Part shown: piece by piece, positions 2,569 to 23,325 of the stretch
How the letters are laid out: the number at the start of each line of letters is the position of its first letter
Numbering within the stretch: the stretch's first letter is position 1
IMG/VR virus record: IMGVR_UViG_3300005289_000075
Span: 1-31,198 of that record
DNA length: 31,198 bases
Reading direction: 5' to 3' (one strand)
Source: a virus
Made by a program: the position numbers and the translations under genes
Notes under the pieces: model-generated
The model's database searches: none
Seen by the model: only the letters and a program-made list of their open reading frames with translations
Told to the model about the DNA's origin: nothing

Positions 2569-2606
2569 AACACCTGCGGATCCATCCAGTACTGGAAAGG
2601 CAGGCG

Positions 2607-2637
2607 AAAAAAAACCGCCTGGCAGGGCGGCTTCTCT
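2607..2637. terminator. Hairpin after cro (tR1-like)
   Basis: CCGCC (2615-2619) and GGCGG (2626-2630) form a stem preceded by eight A and followed by CTTCTCT. It has a strong T-tract only on the minus strand; on the plus strand it is weak. Its place just after cro matches tR1 of lambda, where a leaky stop lowers downstream expression. Confidence 0.45.
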
Positions 2638-2659
2638 ACAACAAACATCGAGGTCGATT

Positions 2660-3406
2660 ATGCACTCCGCAATCGATGCCAGCAATACCAAGCTTGTTGC
2701 GTTAGCTGTTGGCGATTCGCCAAAACTGGCGCATCAGTTCATGTCTACCCGCGAGATCGCGCAACTCACTGGCAAGAGCCATGACAACGTGCTTCGTGAT
2801 GCACGACGCCTGGTCGCAGAGGGTGTCCTCAAATCTGAGGAGACCCCATACACCCATCCACAAAACGGCCAATCCTATCCAGAGTTCCTGCTGAGTCAGC
2901 GCGATACCTTGGTGCTGGTATCCGGTTACAACTCCCAACTGCGTGCCAGGATTATCGACCGGTGGCAGGATCTTGAGGCGAGGGTAGTTGCCCAGGTCCG
3001 AATCCCCCAAACCTTCGCTGAGGCGCTGCGACTGGCTGCCGATCAAGCAGAGCAGAACCTTCAGCTGCAGCAGGTCATCCAGAAACAAGCCCCGAAAGTC
3101 GCGGCCATCAAGCGTTTGGCTTCTGCTTGCGGGGCCATCTGCATCACTGATGCGGCCAAGCAGCTGCAGGTTGCCCCGTCGAAGTTGTTCGACTGGCTGG
3201 AGCAGAATCGCTGGATCTTCCGCCGCAAGGGCTCGAAGCGATGGATCGCTTATCAGCCTCGCATCACCTCGGGGCTTATGAAGCACAAGGTGACAGCCCT
3301 GAAACCTGACCCTGAAACAGGTATCGAGCGCGCCGCGTTTGATCCTCTGGTGACCCCGAAAGGGCTTGCGCGTCTTGCTGAATTAAAGGCTGGGGGTTCG
3401 CTGTGA
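2660..3406 (+). CDS. Rha family regulator with KilAC C-terminal domain
   Basis: I chose ATG 2660 (GAGGTCG 6 bases upstream) over an in-frame ATG at 2561, which overlaps cro and runs through a hairpin; the product is 248 residues. Residues about 20-100 match the Rha domain: MSTREIAQLTGKSHDNVLRD, then SYPEFLLSQRDTLVLVSGYN, then RARIIDRWQDLE. Residues about 115-150 are a helical linker (QAEQNLQLQQVIQKQ). Residues about 150-245 match the phage antirepressor KilAC DNA-binding domain (AAKQLQVAPSKLFDWLEQN, then RRKGSKRW). Rha proteins interfere with phage growth in hosts lacking IHF, and KilAC/ANT proteins act as antirepressors, so a regulatory role early in infection is likely. It is the first gene after cro. 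The stop overlaps the next start (GTGA). Confidence 0.85.
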   Translation: MHSAIDASNTKLVALAVGDSPKLAHQFMSTREIAQLTGKSHDNVLRDARRLVAEGVLKSEETPYTHPQNGQSYPEFLLSQRDTLVLVSGYNSQLRARIIDRWQDLEARVVAQVRIPQTFAEALRLAADQAEQNLQLQQVIQKQAPKVAAIKRLASACGAICITDAAKQLQVAPSKLFDWLEQNRWIFRRKGSKRWIAYQPRITSGLMKHKVTALKPDPETGIERAAFDPLVTPKGLARLAELKAGGSL

Positions 3407-18383: not shown

Positions 18384-18887
18384 ATGCCCGCAGAAGACAA
18401 CCTCAATACAGCCGCCGGCTGCCGCCTCTTTATTGGCAGTAAGACCGGTGCGACCACCAAAACCGAGTTCGAGGCCGACACCTATGTGCGTGTTGGTGAA
18501 ATCGAAGACCTCGGCGAGTTCGGCGACACCTTCAGCAGCGTGACCTTCACGTCGCTCGAGGATGGCCGTGTGCGCAAGTACAAGGGCACGGCTGACGCCG
18601 GCGACATGGCCCTCACTGTGGGCCTGGATAACGGTGACGCCGGCCAGAACGCGGTGAAGACCGCTCACAAAGATCGCAGCAAGGGTGACTACAACATCAA
18701 GGTGACCCTGAATGACGGCGACCCTGATGCCTCGCCGGCCATCAGCCCGACCACGTTCTACTACCGGGCAAAGGTCATGAACAACACCGTGGCTGCCGGT
18801 GCCGCGGACAATGTAGTGCGCCGCAACATCACCCTGGGCATCAACTCGGAAATCCTCGAGCTGCTGCCGGCCCCTGTAACCCCATAA
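18384..18887 (+). CDS. Major tail tube protein
   Basis: GGAGG lies 7 bases before ATG 18384; 167 residues. The start NTAAGCRLFIGSKTGATTKT, then YVRVGEIEDLGEFGDTFSSV, then VRKYKGTADAGDMALTVGLD and the later SPTTFYYRAKVMNN are typical of siphophage tail tube proteins (TTP). It stacks as hexamers around the tape measure. A strong ribosome site and flanking hairpins (18340-18352, 18892-18909) suit a very abundant protein. No Ig-like C-terminal domain is present. Confidence 0.9.
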   Translation: MPAEDNLNTAAGCRLFIGSKTGATTKTEFEADTYVRVGEIEDLGEFGDTFSSVTFTSLEDGRVRKYKGTADAGDMALTVGLDNGDAGQNAVKTAHKDRSKGDYNIKVTLNDGDPDASPAISPTTFYYRAKVMNNTVAAGAADNVVRRNITLGINSEILELLPAPVTP

Positions 18888-18927: not shown

Positions 18928-19257
18928 ATGAACAACACGCTGCACGGTACCGTTACCGTCAAGCTGGGTGATGAAGAGTTCACCCTTACCCCAACCCTGA
19001 AGGCTGTGCGGGCGATCGAGAGCCGCTTTGGCGGCCTGCGCGGTGCTTCCCAGGCGATCAACTCGCTCAGCGTCGAAGGTTGCGCGGCCATCCTGGTGGC
19101 CGGCGCCGGCCTTGACGAGAAAGCCGCCAAGGCAGTGCCAGAGCAAGTCTGGCAGCACGGCGTTCTCGATGTGTCGACACAGCTGAACGCCTACCTGGTT
19201 GCGCTGTACAACCCGCGCGGCAAAGACCCGGGAAACGATCAAGCCGGGACGGCGTAA
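18928..19257 (+). CDS. Tail assembly chaperone (gpG-like)
   Basis: AAAGGA precedes ATG 18928; 109 residues. The chain GTVTVKLGDEEFTLTPTLKA, then VRAIESRFGGLRGASQAINS and QVWQHGVLDVSTQLNAYLVA resembles the gene-transfer-agent/DUF3356-type chaperones that replace gpG. With the frameshifted form (to 19508) it coats the tape measure before the tail tube polymerises and is not in the finished virion. The slippery heptamer at 19230-19236 lies 19 bases before its stop. Confidence 0.88.
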   Translation: MNNTLHGTVTVKLGDEEFTLTPTLKAVRAIESRFGGLRGASQAINSLSVEGCAAILVAGAGLDEKAAKAVPEQVWQHGVLDVSTQLNAYLVALYNPRGKDPGNDQAGTA

Positions 19258-19508
19258 GCGTCATCGAGGACGGAAGTTACGTTGACCGGCTTTATTCGAT
19301 CGCTACGGGGTGGTTGGGCTGGGCGCCGGATGTTGCTTGGCGCACGCCGCTTCCTGAGTTGTTCATGGCACTTGATGCACGGCTCGAATGGTCGCAGATG
19401 ACCAATCCCTTCGGCAAAGGAAAGGCACAAGGGGTCAAGCCGAAACCCAGCGCCTCGGCTGTGGCCGACAAGCTGCGCCAGGCCCTCACTGGGCGTGCGC
19501 GGTCCTGA
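18928..19508 (+). CDS. Frameshift product gpGT-like: join(18928..19236, 19236..19508)
   Basis: The second frame has no good start of its own and lies at -1 to the gpG-like frame. Slipping at G GGA AAC joins 103 codons of the first frame to 90 of the second (193 residues). The added part, including DGVSVIEDGSYVDRLYSIAT and GWLGWAPDVAWRTPLPELFM, matches the T-type chaperone extension that binds tail tube subunits. A TTG at 19314 could start part of it but has no Shine-Dalgarno. The G/GT ratio is fixed by slipping. Confidence 0.82.
19230..19236 (+). promoter_or_regulatory. -1 ribosomal slippery site GGGAAAC
   Basis: In the zero frame the sequence is CCG GGA AAC GAT, so G GGA AAC is a perfect X XXY YYZ heptamer. 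A 7-bp stem can form between AAGCCGG (19241-19247) and CCGGCTT (19286-19292), starting 5 bases downstream, and a GACG/CGTC hairpin (19248-19262) lies inside. These may stimulate slipping. Confidence 0.85.
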
Positions 19509-19560
19509 ATGTATCTGCCTCTATGGTACATTCCTCGGCTCATCAAGGAGGCACCATCAC

Positions 19561-19872
19561 ATGAAGAGACTGTTTGTCCTGCTGGCCGCGTGCGTACTGG
19601 CAGCATGCACTACCTATGGTAAACCGGTTACCCAAGCGCAGTTGGATCAAATTAAGCAGGGCGTCACCACTAAAGAGGAACTGCTGAGCAGTTTCGGGCA
19701 GCCGCTTGCCACGACAAGAAACTCTGATGGCACTCAGGTCTTGTCCTGGGGCTACACGAAAGTCGGCTTTGCTGGTTCTAGCTACGAAAACCAAGGCTTG
19801 AGCGTTGTTCTTGATGCAGCGGGCAAGGTTGCTAGTTTCACCACCACTGATATGGCAAATCCCTACAAATAG
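19561..19872 (+). CDS. Lipoprotein with SmpA/BamE-like fold (moron)
   Basis: AAGGAGG lies 9 bases before ATG 19561; 103 residues. The N-terminus is a lipoprotein signal (KRLFVLLAACVLAACTT) with a lipobox LAAC at about Cys16. The mature part, TQAQLDQIKQGVTTKEELLS, then SFGQPLATTRNSDGTQVLSW, LSVVLDAAGKVASFTTTD, follows the SmpA/OmlA (BamE) pattern of small outer-membrane lipoproteins. It stands between the tail chaperone and tape measure genes, where a structural gene would break assembly order, and has its own terminator (19891-19915) and lower GC. It is probably made in the lysogen and could change the host surface, for example in superinfection exclusion. Its promoter is not clear. Confidence 0.82.
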   Translation: MKRLFVLLAACVLAACTTYGKPVTQAQLDQIKQGVTTKEELLSSFGQPLATTRNSDGTQVLSWGYTKVGFAGSSYENQGLSVVLDAAGKVASFTTTDMANPYK

Positions 19873-19890
19873 CCACGACAACTTTCAACG

Positions 19891-19915
19891 AGCCCGGCCA
19901 TGTGCCGGGCTTTTT
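19891..19915 (+). terminator. Terminator of the lipoprotein moron
   Basis: AGCCCGGC-CATGT-GCCGGGCT followed by TTTTT, 19 bases past the lipoprotein stop and 18 bases before the tape measure start. Late transcription must read through it. Confidence 0.88.
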
Positions 19916-19932
19916 CGTTTACGGAGACCGGA

Positions 19933-22900
19933 ATGGCCGACCAACAAGTCCAGGGGATGCTGGTCCAGATCGAGGCGACTACCGCCCAGTTGCGTCGTGA
20001 GTTGGCCAGTGCGGATCAGTTGGTCGCGCGGTCATCCCAGGCGATTGACCAGAGTCTGGCTAAGGTCGATTCAGCTTTTGATCGGGCAGGCGCAGCGGCG
20101 CAGCAAGCCGGCACTCTCATGCGCGGCGCGTTCGCGGCAGTGGCCGGTGCCGGTCTGATCGGCAGCATCATCCAGCAGGTTGATGCATACGGGCAAATGT
20201 CTGACCGGATGAAGGCTGCAGCTGGTAGCGCAAGTGGGTACCAGCTGGTTCAGGATCACCTGCTACAAACTGCGCAGGAAACCTACCGGCCTCTGGCAGA
20301 GGCCCAAGAGCTGTATATCCGCACTGCAGACGTTATGCGTAGCCTGGGCTTCAACACCCAGGAGACTTTGGATATCACCGACAGCTTCAGCTTTCTGCTG
20401 GTGACCAACGCTGCAGCTGCTGATAAAGCCGGGTCTGCGCTGGGTGCTTATTCGAAGGCGCTGCAGACAGGAAAGGTCGAGGCGGATGGCTGGGTGTCCA
20501 TTCAGGACGCCATGCCGACCATCGTCACTGCGATTGCCACCGCCACCGGCAAGAGTGCCGAGGAAATCCGAAAGCTCGGCGTGCAGGGCAAGCTGTCGCT
20601 CGAAGACATCAATACCGGTCTGCTGCGCACCGTGGAGGTCAACCGCAAGGCTGCGGCCGACATGTCCACCAGCGTGCAGGACGCGATGGTAAACATCAGC
20701 AACGCCATTCAGGCGTTCTTGGGCGGCATGGAGGAGCAGACCGGCATAGTCGCAGGCTTTGCAAGCGTGCTGATTGCGCTGGCTGACAACGTGGACCTTG
20801 TGGCCGTGGCCATGGGCGGCGTCGGTGCAGCTGCGCTGACTAACTACGTTGTGAAAACTGGGCTGGCCGTGCAGGCTGCGCGGGCTGACCGGGTCGCACG
20901 TGTTGCCCAGGCTGAGGCAACACTACAGGCGGCGATAGCAGATCAGCGGAAGGCTCAGACGGCCACCATTCTCGCTGAGCGAGAAGCGATTGCGGCGCGA
21001 GGTACCGCAGTTCAGACCCAAATGTCCATTCAGCTAGCGACCGCGCGGACAAAGGAGGCCGCAGCAACCACCGCAGTAGCAACCGCTCAGTCTGGCTTGA
21101 AGGCCGCTTCGGCCGGTCTCCTTGCAGGCCTGGGAGGCCCGATGGGGCTGGCAATCATCGCCGGCACCGCAGCGGCAAGCTTCCTCTTGCTTCGCGACAA
21201 CGCGGACCAGGCTGGGGTTAGTCTGGAGGACATGCAAAAGCCCGTATCCCAACTGCGGGAGGACTTCCAGAAGCTCAATCAGGACCAGCGCGAAGCTGGC
21301 TTGGTGAAATGGCAGCAGGAGCAGATCAACGCTACGGACAAGGTCAAGGATGCCTACGGAGAGCTTGCCCAGGCCATCCGCTCTGCAACAGTGACAGCAC
21401 CTGTTCGCGACTCGGGCGGCCAGTACAACAAGCAGCTGTCCGAGTACCAGGGGATCATCGATCGGCTGAACGAGGCTCGTTCCTCTGGTGCCGACCTTGC
21501 CCCGATCCTCAAGGAAGTGGGTAATCGCCTGCAGTTGCCGGCGGCTACGATGCAGGGCTGGATCACCCAAGCCGGCGCCGTCAGCGATGCTGATCAGCGC
21601 TCAGGCCTGATTGCCGAAACCTTGCGTGTCCTCACTGGGGTCACCAAGGAAAACACAGTCGCGACCGAAGCGAACAATGCTGCGAAGAGCGGCATGAGCA
21701 GCGCTGGCCAGACTTACCTGGAAACCCTGCAGAAACAGCTCGGCGGCCTGCAAGACAACAATGACGCGATCAAGATCGCCAACCGCTACATCGCCGAGAA
21801 TGCGGACCTCACCGAAACAGATCGCCAGGCCATCCTGTCGGCAGCTAACGCCATCGAGGCGCAGAAAAAGGCCAACGACAAGGCGAACAAGTCCAAGCGC
21901 GAGGGGGAATCAAAGTCTGAGCAGGCTGCCAAGAAGCAGCTGACGGATTTCAAGGCAGCGGAGGAAGGCTACAAGCGCCAGATTGAGCTGATCAACACCA
22001 CTGGTGACAAGCAGAAGAACGCCACGGAAGTCGCGAAACTCTCCTTCGAACTTCAGGAGGGCAAGCTCGGCAATCTGTCGAAAGCGCAGCAAAAGCGCCT
22101 GCTTGAGTTGGCCGCCGAGCTGGATACCCTGAACAAGATCAAGAAGGCCAATGAAGACGACCTGAAGCTTAGCGCTTTCAAGGCTGCGCAGCAGGCCGGC
22201 ACACAGTCGGCGGTAAATGGCTATGCCCAAGAACTGGCCGGAATCGGCCTGGGGGACAAGGCCCGCGACCGTATGCGGTCTGAGCTGGCATTGCGTCAGA
22301 AGCATGTCGAAGACATCCAATCCCTGAATGAGCAGCGGAACACCGGGCAGATTGAGCCGGAGTTGTATGCGAGCGAAACACAGGTCCTCCAGGAGGAGCT
22401 CGACAATAGGCTGCAAGCTCAACAGAACTACTACGCGGCGATTGACGAGCAACAGTCCAACTGGATGAACGGCGTTCGTGAAGCATGGGCGAACTTTGCC
22501 GACGAGGCACAGAACTACTCGGCTCAAGCTGCAGATCTGACTAACAGCGCGTTAGGCAGTGCTCGCGGCGAGCTCAGCACTTTCATGACGGACGTTGCTA
22601 CTGGTGCAGAGGACGCTGGAGATGCGTTGAACAGTATGCTCGGAGGGTTTGCAGAGTCCGTTCTCAACGCGCTGGCTGATATGGCTGCTCAGTGGCTGAT
22701 TTACCAGGGGGTTCAGTTGCTTGTCGGCAAAACTACGCAGGCAAGCTCAGCAGGCATGCTAGCTGCGAATGCTCAGGCCACCGCACTTCAAGCTGGTCTT
22801 GCTGCGTTCGCTTCAACTGCGGCAATTCCTATTGTTGGTCCGGCCTTGGCACCTGCTGCCATGGCTAGTGCATTGACTGTAGCGACGCCACTGGCATCCG

Positions 22901-23325
22901 CCGTTGGCATGACGGCCATGGCCGGTGTCGGCTTCAAGGATGGTGGCTATACGGGGCATGGCCGCAAGGATGAGGTAGCTGGACCGGTGCACCGGGGTGA
23001 GTACGTTTTCGACGCCGAGGCCACTGCGCGTATCGGCGTCGGCACACTGGAGGCCATCAGTGACGGTCGCGCTGCCTTTGTCGGAGGTCCTGGCAGCTCG
23101 GCGCCGGTCGCTGCTGACCCGGTGGCTTCGCCAGGGATAGCTCCGGCCCAGCCGACACCCCAGGTGAATCTGTATGAGGATGCCAGCCGGGCAGGGCAAG
23201 TGCAGATGTCCACCGGGCCTGATGGTCGCCAGATCATTGATCTGTGCGTGGCGAACATCCGACAGGGCGGTGCGCTGGCCAAAGCCTACGAACAACACTA
23301 TGGAGCGAGAAGGGTGGGGCGATGA
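19933..23325 (+). CDS. Tail tape measure protein
   Basis: ATG 19933 (CGGAG 6 bases upstream) gives 1130 residues; an in-frame ATG at 19900 lies inside the terminator hairpin. The N-terminus (VQGMLVQIEATTAQLRRELA) and the region up to about residue 250 match the tape measure N-terminal domain (TIGR02675 type: AAAGSASGYQLVQDHLLQTA, ADKAGSALGAYSKAL). Long Ala/Gln/Lys coiled-coil stretches follow, with hydrophobic segments at about 395-418 and 955-1003. The C-terminus has GFKDGGYTGHGRKDEVAGPV and HRGEYVF, a standard ending. Its length sets tail length (roughly 1.5 angstrom per residue in the family), and it enters the cell with DNA. The stop overlaps the next gene (ATGA). Confidence 0.93.
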   Translation: MADQQVQGMLVQIEATTAQLRRELASADQLVARSSQAIDQSLAKVDSAFDRAGAAAQQAGTLMRGAFAAVAGAGLIGSIIQQVDAYGQMSDRMKAAAGSASGYQLVQDHLLQTAQETYRPLAEAQELYIRTADVMRSLGFNTQETLDITDSFSFLLVTNAAAADKAGSALGAYSKALQTGKVEADGWVSIQDAMPTIVTAIATATGKSAEEIRKLGVQGKLSLEDINTGLLRTVEVNRKAAADMSTSVQDAMVNISNAIQAFLGGMEEQTGIVAGFASVLIALADNVDLVAVAMGGVGAAALTNYVVKTGLAVQAARADRVARVAQAEATLQAAIADQRKAQTATILAEREAIAARGTAVQTQMSIQLATARTKEAAATTAVATAQSGLKAASAGLLAGLGGPMGLAIIAGTAAASFLLLRDNADQAGVSLEDMQKPVSQLREDFQKLNQDQREAGLVKWQQEQINATDKVKDAYGELAQAIRSATVTAPVRDSGGQYNKQLSEYQGIIDRLNEARSSGADLAPILKEVGNRLQLPAATMQGWITQAGAVSDADQRSGLIAETLRVLTGVTKENTVATEANNAAKSGMSSAGQTYLETLQKQLGGLQDNNDAIKIANRYIAENADLTETDRQAILSAANAIEAQKKANDKANKSKREGESKSEQAAKKQLTDFKAAEEGYKRQIELINTTGDKQKNATEVAKLSFELQEGKLGNLSKAQQKRLLELAAELDTLNKIKKANEDDLKLSAFKAAQQAGTQSAVNGYAQELAGIGLGDKARDRMRSELALRQKHVEDIQSLNEQRNTGQIEPELYASETQVLQEELDNRLQAQQNYYAAIDEQQSNWMNGVREAWANFADEAQNYSAQAADLTNSALGSARGELSTFMTDVATGAEDAGDALNSMLGGFAESVLNALADMAAQWLIYQGVQLLVGKTTQASSAGMLAANAQATALQAGLAAFASTAAIPIVGPALAPAAMASALTVATPLASAVGMTAMAGVGFKDGGYTGHGRKDEVAGPVHRGEYVFDAEATARIGVGTLEAISDGRAAFVGGPGSSAPVAADPVASPGIAPAQPTPQVNLYEDASRAGQVQMSTGPDGRQIIDLCVANIRQGGALAKAYEQHYGARRVGR

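Follow-up and report, generated by a model that had tools for sequence, protein, structure and literature searches.

Organization of the locus

The window that we analyzed is the whole of IMG/VR virus record IMGVR_UViG_3300005289_000075, 31,198 nucleotides. Genes for terminase, portal, capsid and tail tube proteins are followed by two overlapping open reading frames (ORFs), which we call G-like and T-like, and then by genes for a small lipoprotein, the tape measure protein and tail tip proteins. The overlapping pair thus lies between the genes for the major tail protein (phrog_158) and the tape measure protein, with one lipoprotein gene preceding the latter. The features of the locus are listed in Table 1.

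Table 1. Features of the putative tail-chaperone locus and its flanking genes
Feature	Position	Strand	Details
Major tail (tube) protein	18384..18887	+	phrog_158 major tail protein, E 9e-30; Pfam TTP families sub-threshold
Putative G-like tail assembly chaperone, zero frame, 109 aa	18928..19257	+	stop TAA 19255-19257; phrog_6454, E 8e-45
Putative slippery heptamer G_GGA_AAC	19230..19236	+	P-site GGA, A-site AAC; all 146 distinct homologous -1 loci have GGGAAAN in phase
Predicted T-like C-terminal extension, -1 frame	19230..19508	+	stop TGA 19506-19508; GT-like fusion 194 aa; phrog_7493, E 2e-24
Spacer, heptamer to hairpin, 4 nt	19237..19240	+	
Putative stimulatory hairpin	19241..19292	+	outer helix AAGCCGG/CCGGCUU; inner helices include the zero-frame stop codon
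Tape measure protein	19933..23325 (start may be 19900)	+	PF20155 TMP_3, E 1e-45; phrog_339, E 1e-194

The lipoprotein gene (19561-19872) encodes 103 amino acids (MKRLFVLLAACVLAAC...) and matches phrog_3135, whose function is not assigned; there is also a weak BamE-like match to PF04355 (19.9 bits, below the cut-off). A hairpin resembling an intrinsic terminator lies 3′ of the gene (19890-19912), and gene and hairpin together look like a moron. When the interval between the chaperone pair and the tape measure gene (19509-19932 in this phage) was compared with those of 144 related loci, 39 of the 145 had at most 100 nt and all others had 345-1215 nt. At least a dozen small proteins with no relation to one another are encoded in the inserts, and many of them carry a signal peptide, a lipoprotein signal or membrane helices. 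This gap is a variable cargo hotspot, described here for the first time. The superinfection-exclusion moron gp15 of HK97 occupies the same neighborhood; a literature search for lipoprotein cargo at this spot in Pseudomonas phages returned no direct precedent.

Identity of the two halves

The families matched by the G-like and T-like proteins, phrog_6454 and phrog_7493, are both listed as of unknown function. The original prediction labeled the first protein a DUF3356-type chaperone. That label proved weak, as the match to PF11836 (Phage_TAC_11, formerly DUF3356) is confined to residues 7-36 and scores 19.9 bits (E 8e-4) against a cut-off of 27.8. The -1 product of this phage did not match Phage_TAC_6 (PF09550; cut-off 23.4 bits), and profile searches detected no sequence relation of the pair to lambda G or T.

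The predicted fold of the G-like protein (pLDDT 87) resembles, at marginal E-values, viral models in BFVD, several of which carry the annotation tail assembly chaperone. Searches of solved structures by sequence and by fold yielded nothing meaningful, leaving the G-like model without a solved counterpart, and the T-like half gave a poor model (pLDDT 69). Since there is no solved counterpart, the PF11836 match is weak and the fold matches are marginal, we assign the chaperone role mainly from position and frameshift architecture. We propose that phrog_6454 and phrog_7493 probably have tail-chaperone function, an assignment that is new for these two families.

A putative slippery heptamer in zero-frame phase and a startless second frame

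From 19228 to 19257, the zero frame reads CCG GGA AAC GAT CAA GCC GGG ACG GCG TAA, so that the GGGAAAC heptamer falls in the phase G_GGA_AAC six codons 5′ of the stop. This agrees with the original prediction, which placed G GGA AAC in the zero frame shortly before the first stop and described an open downstream -1 frame without its own start. The latter point also held. The -1 frame is open from a stop at 19113 through its TGA, and it contains no ATG, GTG or TTG before the conserved SYVDRLYSIATGW core; the first such codon is a TTG at 19314, downstream of the core. Reinitiation at a standard start cannot supply free T-like product in this phage.

The strand analyzed contains four copies of GGGAAA in its 31 kb, all phases included, giving a probability of ~0.6% that an in-phase match would fall within the 141-nt overlap by chance. 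GGA accounts for 10% of the Gly codons in the phage. Slippage at the heptamer would produce the junction ...KDPG-N-RSSRDG..., in which the residues are G102, N103 and R104.

The heptamer is invariant across homologous loci

We collected 259 loci by scanning viral contigs four times, guided by protein sequence, scanning bacterial genomes once and searching named phages. Both domains were present in 149 distinct loci, with the second domain in the -1 frame in 146 and in the same frame in three. The named hosts of the 146 loci are nearly all Pseudomonas, and the closest relatives in named genomes come from the Pseudomonas putida group and other Pseudomonas species.

All 146 distinct -1 loci contain GGGAAAN in X_XXY_YYZ phase near the zero-frame stop. 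The third codon of the heptamer is AAG in 89, AAC in 55 and AAA in two. The Gly codon is invariably GGA, and the codon before it, which encodes nine different amino acids, invariably ends in G. The patterns of the profile-based scans came from conserved cores and not from the heptamer; among the single-sequence scans, one of the six patterns in one scan (GKDPGNDQ) touches it. Most loci came from core patterns, so the 146/146 result is essentially not circular. The -1 ORF opens one codon 5′ of the heptamer, where there is a -1 stop, in 45 loci, and exactly at the heptamer in nine.

In the -1 frame beyond the zero-frame stop, variability at the three codon positions was 0.147, 0.061 and 0.431, highest at third positions. 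Purifying selection acts on both frames. Judged from this comparison of sequences, a chance origin of the heptamer is untenable.

One alternative is that the second ORF is expressed independently, by reinitiation after termination or by internal initiation from a non-standard start, and that the heptamer is incidental. Consistent with this, the zero-frame stop forms a GTGA stop/start overlap in 32 of the 146 relatives, though not in this phage, and in P. aeruginosa phage records the second half is annotated as starting at the GTG of this motif. The heptamer of all 32 ends in AAG and never in AAC, which may reflect shared ancestry or, alternatively, reinitiation that supplements frameshifting only in AAG lineages. 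In GTGA loci, reinitiation may add some free T-like product. However, no ATG, GTG or TTG precedes the core in this phage or in 81 of the 146 loci, and independent expression leaves unexplained why the heptamer is invariant and locked in phase and why its Gly codon is always the same rare one. The single-ORF relatives described below also suggest that the two domains function as one chain. We consider independent expression very unlikely.

Relatives that encode both domains in one ORF

Searches with the second domain identified ORFs of ~200 amino acids in alphaproteobacteria, including Rhodopseudomonas, Sulfitobacter, Yoonia, Jiella and Nioella, among others. In the four that we tested with profiles (Rhodopseudomonas, Sulfitobacter, Yoonia and Jiella), both domains are encoded in one frame. 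These four proteins match phrog_7493 with E-values of 5e-21 to 2e-27 over most of the profile length, and phrog_6454 more weakly. Their second halves score 15.3-23.3 bits against Phage_TAC_6, all under the 23.4-bit cut-off. Comparing the profile of the G-like family with the Jiella protein aligned 102 columns at 95.7% probability. None of the four has an XXXYYYZ heptamer in this gene. We also found a split relative in Rhizobium phage RHph_Y21, with GGGAAAC in phase, between the tail tube and tape measure genes. The existence of single-ORF and split forms of one protein strongly supports the view that the two frames are intended to yield a joined product. The single-ORF relatives of this pair are described here for the first time.

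The single-ORF gene lies directly 3′ of the capsid gene in the two loci checked. We found G-like and T-like domains as one ORF in the alphaproteobacterial prophage-like regions L186, L194, L197 and L201 (around 2600-3310), and in L194 an HNH gene follows the ORF. A search of five such alphaproteobacterial genomes did not identify a second copy of the single-ORF gene.

As these alphaproteobacterial relatives are single ORFs of about 200 amino acids, the break between the frames might instead reflect a normally continuous gene disrupted by mutation or by a sequencing error. Against this, the same -1 layout recurs in 146 distinct loci with both frames under purifying selection, and these loci include sequenced isolates (phages VW-6S, Alize and 5400) and dozens of Pseudomonas genomes. 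We rejected a frame break or assembly error, which these independent sequences refute and to which we assign a practically negligible probability.

A predicted hairpin downstream of the heptamer is under selection

The original prediction also included a potential stem at 19241-19292. Here it was accurate: the 52 nt fold with a predicted energy of -23.5 kcal/mol (z -3.86), and none of 200 dinucleotide shuffles was as stable. Since the spacer is 4 nt, the description of the stem as starting 5 bases later is correct if counted from the last base of the heptamer. Over 12 diverse relatives, the fold z averaged -2.2 in the 65 nt directly 3′ of the heptamer and lay between -0.5 and +0.5 at offsets of -260 to -20 and +80 to +160.

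We separated RNA structure from coding by randomizing synonymous -1 codons downstream of the stop according to the codon usage of the phage. The real site was more stable than its recoded versions (mean z -1.27 over 51 relatives, with 35% at p<0.05), and two control windows in the same gene showed no excess stability (z -0.11 and +0.17). In the 3′ arm, the Arg codon is CGG in 84 of 90 sequences, whereas CGG makes up 20% of the Arg codons farther along the gene. The partner arm, AGCCGG, occupies two positions one base apart in different clades, and hence different codon phases. In an alignment of 45 sequences, 86.8% of the hairpin cells pair, versus 26-58% when the hairpin is slid. Column covariation in this alignment revealed no double changes above shuffles; the region is coding, and one clade has its 5′ arm displaced by a base. 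An Rfam search returned chance matches only. Some AAG clades have a weak hairpin or none, and in more distant groups the hairpin differs. By the recoding comparison, the predicted hairpin is stronger than coding explains and is under selection; its role would presumably be to stimulate frameshifting.

These data also bear on whether the fusion could arise from transcriptional slippage by RNA polymerase, which in principle would generate the same protein. Slippage by RNA polymerase requires long runs of A or T, far longer than three, and the site has only runs of three G and three A. Moreover, the conserved codon phase and the downstream hairpin fit slippage by the ribosome. Given the short runs, the conserved phase and the hairpin, we rejected transcriptional slippage as extremely unlikely.

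The A-site codon and hairpin strength

Loci with AAC in the heptamer had a mean hairpin recoding z of -2.3, compared to -1.2 for AAG loci, and weak hairpins were found in one of 45 AAC loci versus 20 of 55 AAG loci. Only four heptamer switches occur on the tree, too few for a comparison of AAC and hairpin strength by independent pairs; in a phylogenetic regression, p was 0.011 using z and 0.32 using folding energy. In a distant AAC group whose site precedes the stop by 13 bases, hairpins are weak or at most moderate. The association of AAC with strong hairpins, which is new here, is therefore tentative. In bacteria, an AAC A site is expected to slip less than AAG. Possibly, AAC is paired with a more strongly selected hairpin that holds the G:GT ratio constant across switches between GGGAAAG and GGGAAAC, an idea that we regard as conceivable but doubtful. 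This large, clean family, with two A-site codons, varied hairpins and single-ORF relatives, would make a good comparative set for studying control of the chaperone ratio.

A model for production of the two chaperones

Our data argue that this locus very probably uses -1 programmed frameshifting of the lambda G/GT type to produce a 109-amino-acid G-like and a 194-amino-acid GT-like chaperone. This reading, which the original prediction had proposed for the tail chaperones, draws on gene position, the phase of the heptamer, its invariance in 146/146 loci and the startless second half, together with purifying selection on the -1 frame, a hairpin beyond what coding explains and the single-ORF relatives. 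Slippage itself, how often it would happen, what the hairpin contributes and the activities of the two chaperones are inferred.

In this model, most ribosomes would translate 18928-19257 to yield the G-like chaperone, which would coat the tape measure protein. On a minority of ribosomes, slowed by the hairpin while GGA occupies the P site and AAC the A site, both tRNAs would slip back one base onto GGG and AAA. These ribosomes would then read CGA in the -1 frame and terminate at 19508, and the extra domain of the resulting GT-like protein would recruit the tail tube protein.

The T-like half is annotated as a separate hypothetical protein in MK510977.1, OR683400.1, PQ758390.1 and MF975720.1, and as a hypothetical gene of its own in records such as those of vB_Pae_CF183a, Alize, 5400 and VW-6S; in all of these it should be a joined coding sequence.

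Comparison with known frameshift systems

The mechanism itself is known, standard biology of tailed phages. The frameshift that produces lambda G and GT, and its wide conservation, have been reviewed (PMC5009743), and others have measured 6-7% frameshifting in experiments on two chaperone genes (PMC3711429). The GGGAAAC heptamer, noted by the original prediction as a variant suited to study, is not new, as it was predicted earlier in Burkholderia phage KL1 (PMC3483164) and Caulobacter phage Colossus (PMC3556154) and, as G_GGA_AAC, in haloarchaeal virus HCTV-1 (PMC5009743).

As in lambda, where the site is G_GGA_AAG, two overlapping frames lie between the gene for the major tail protein and that for the tape measure, the -1 shift would occur at G_GGA_AAN, the second frame has no start of its own, and position is kept despite low protein similarity (PMC5009743). 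Unlike lambda, the A-site codon is AAC rather than AAG, a well-supported hairpin lies downstream, and the pair has no sequence relation to G or T in profile searches. In systems of this type, a downstream stimulatory structure is frequent, although not universal, and tail assembly requires G and GT at a defined ratio. Among Pfam chaperone families, the likeness to Phage_TAC_11 (PF11836) is the weak N-terminal match of the G-like protein, below the cut-off, and that to Phage_TAC_6 (PF09550) comes from the second half of the single-ORF relatives, just under the cut-off.

Colossus (PMC3556154) and HCTV-1 (PMC5009743) also have the same heptamer in a chaperone pair; both are distant phages, compared here by the heptamer. 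KL1 gp18/gp19 (PMC3483164), although its site is immediately 5′ of a TGA stop and the prediction came without a broad comparative test, resembles this phage in site and position: both have the same heptamer, the same gene position and an extra gene before the tape measure gene, and in KL1, as here, a possible stem-loop lies within the next 35 bases.
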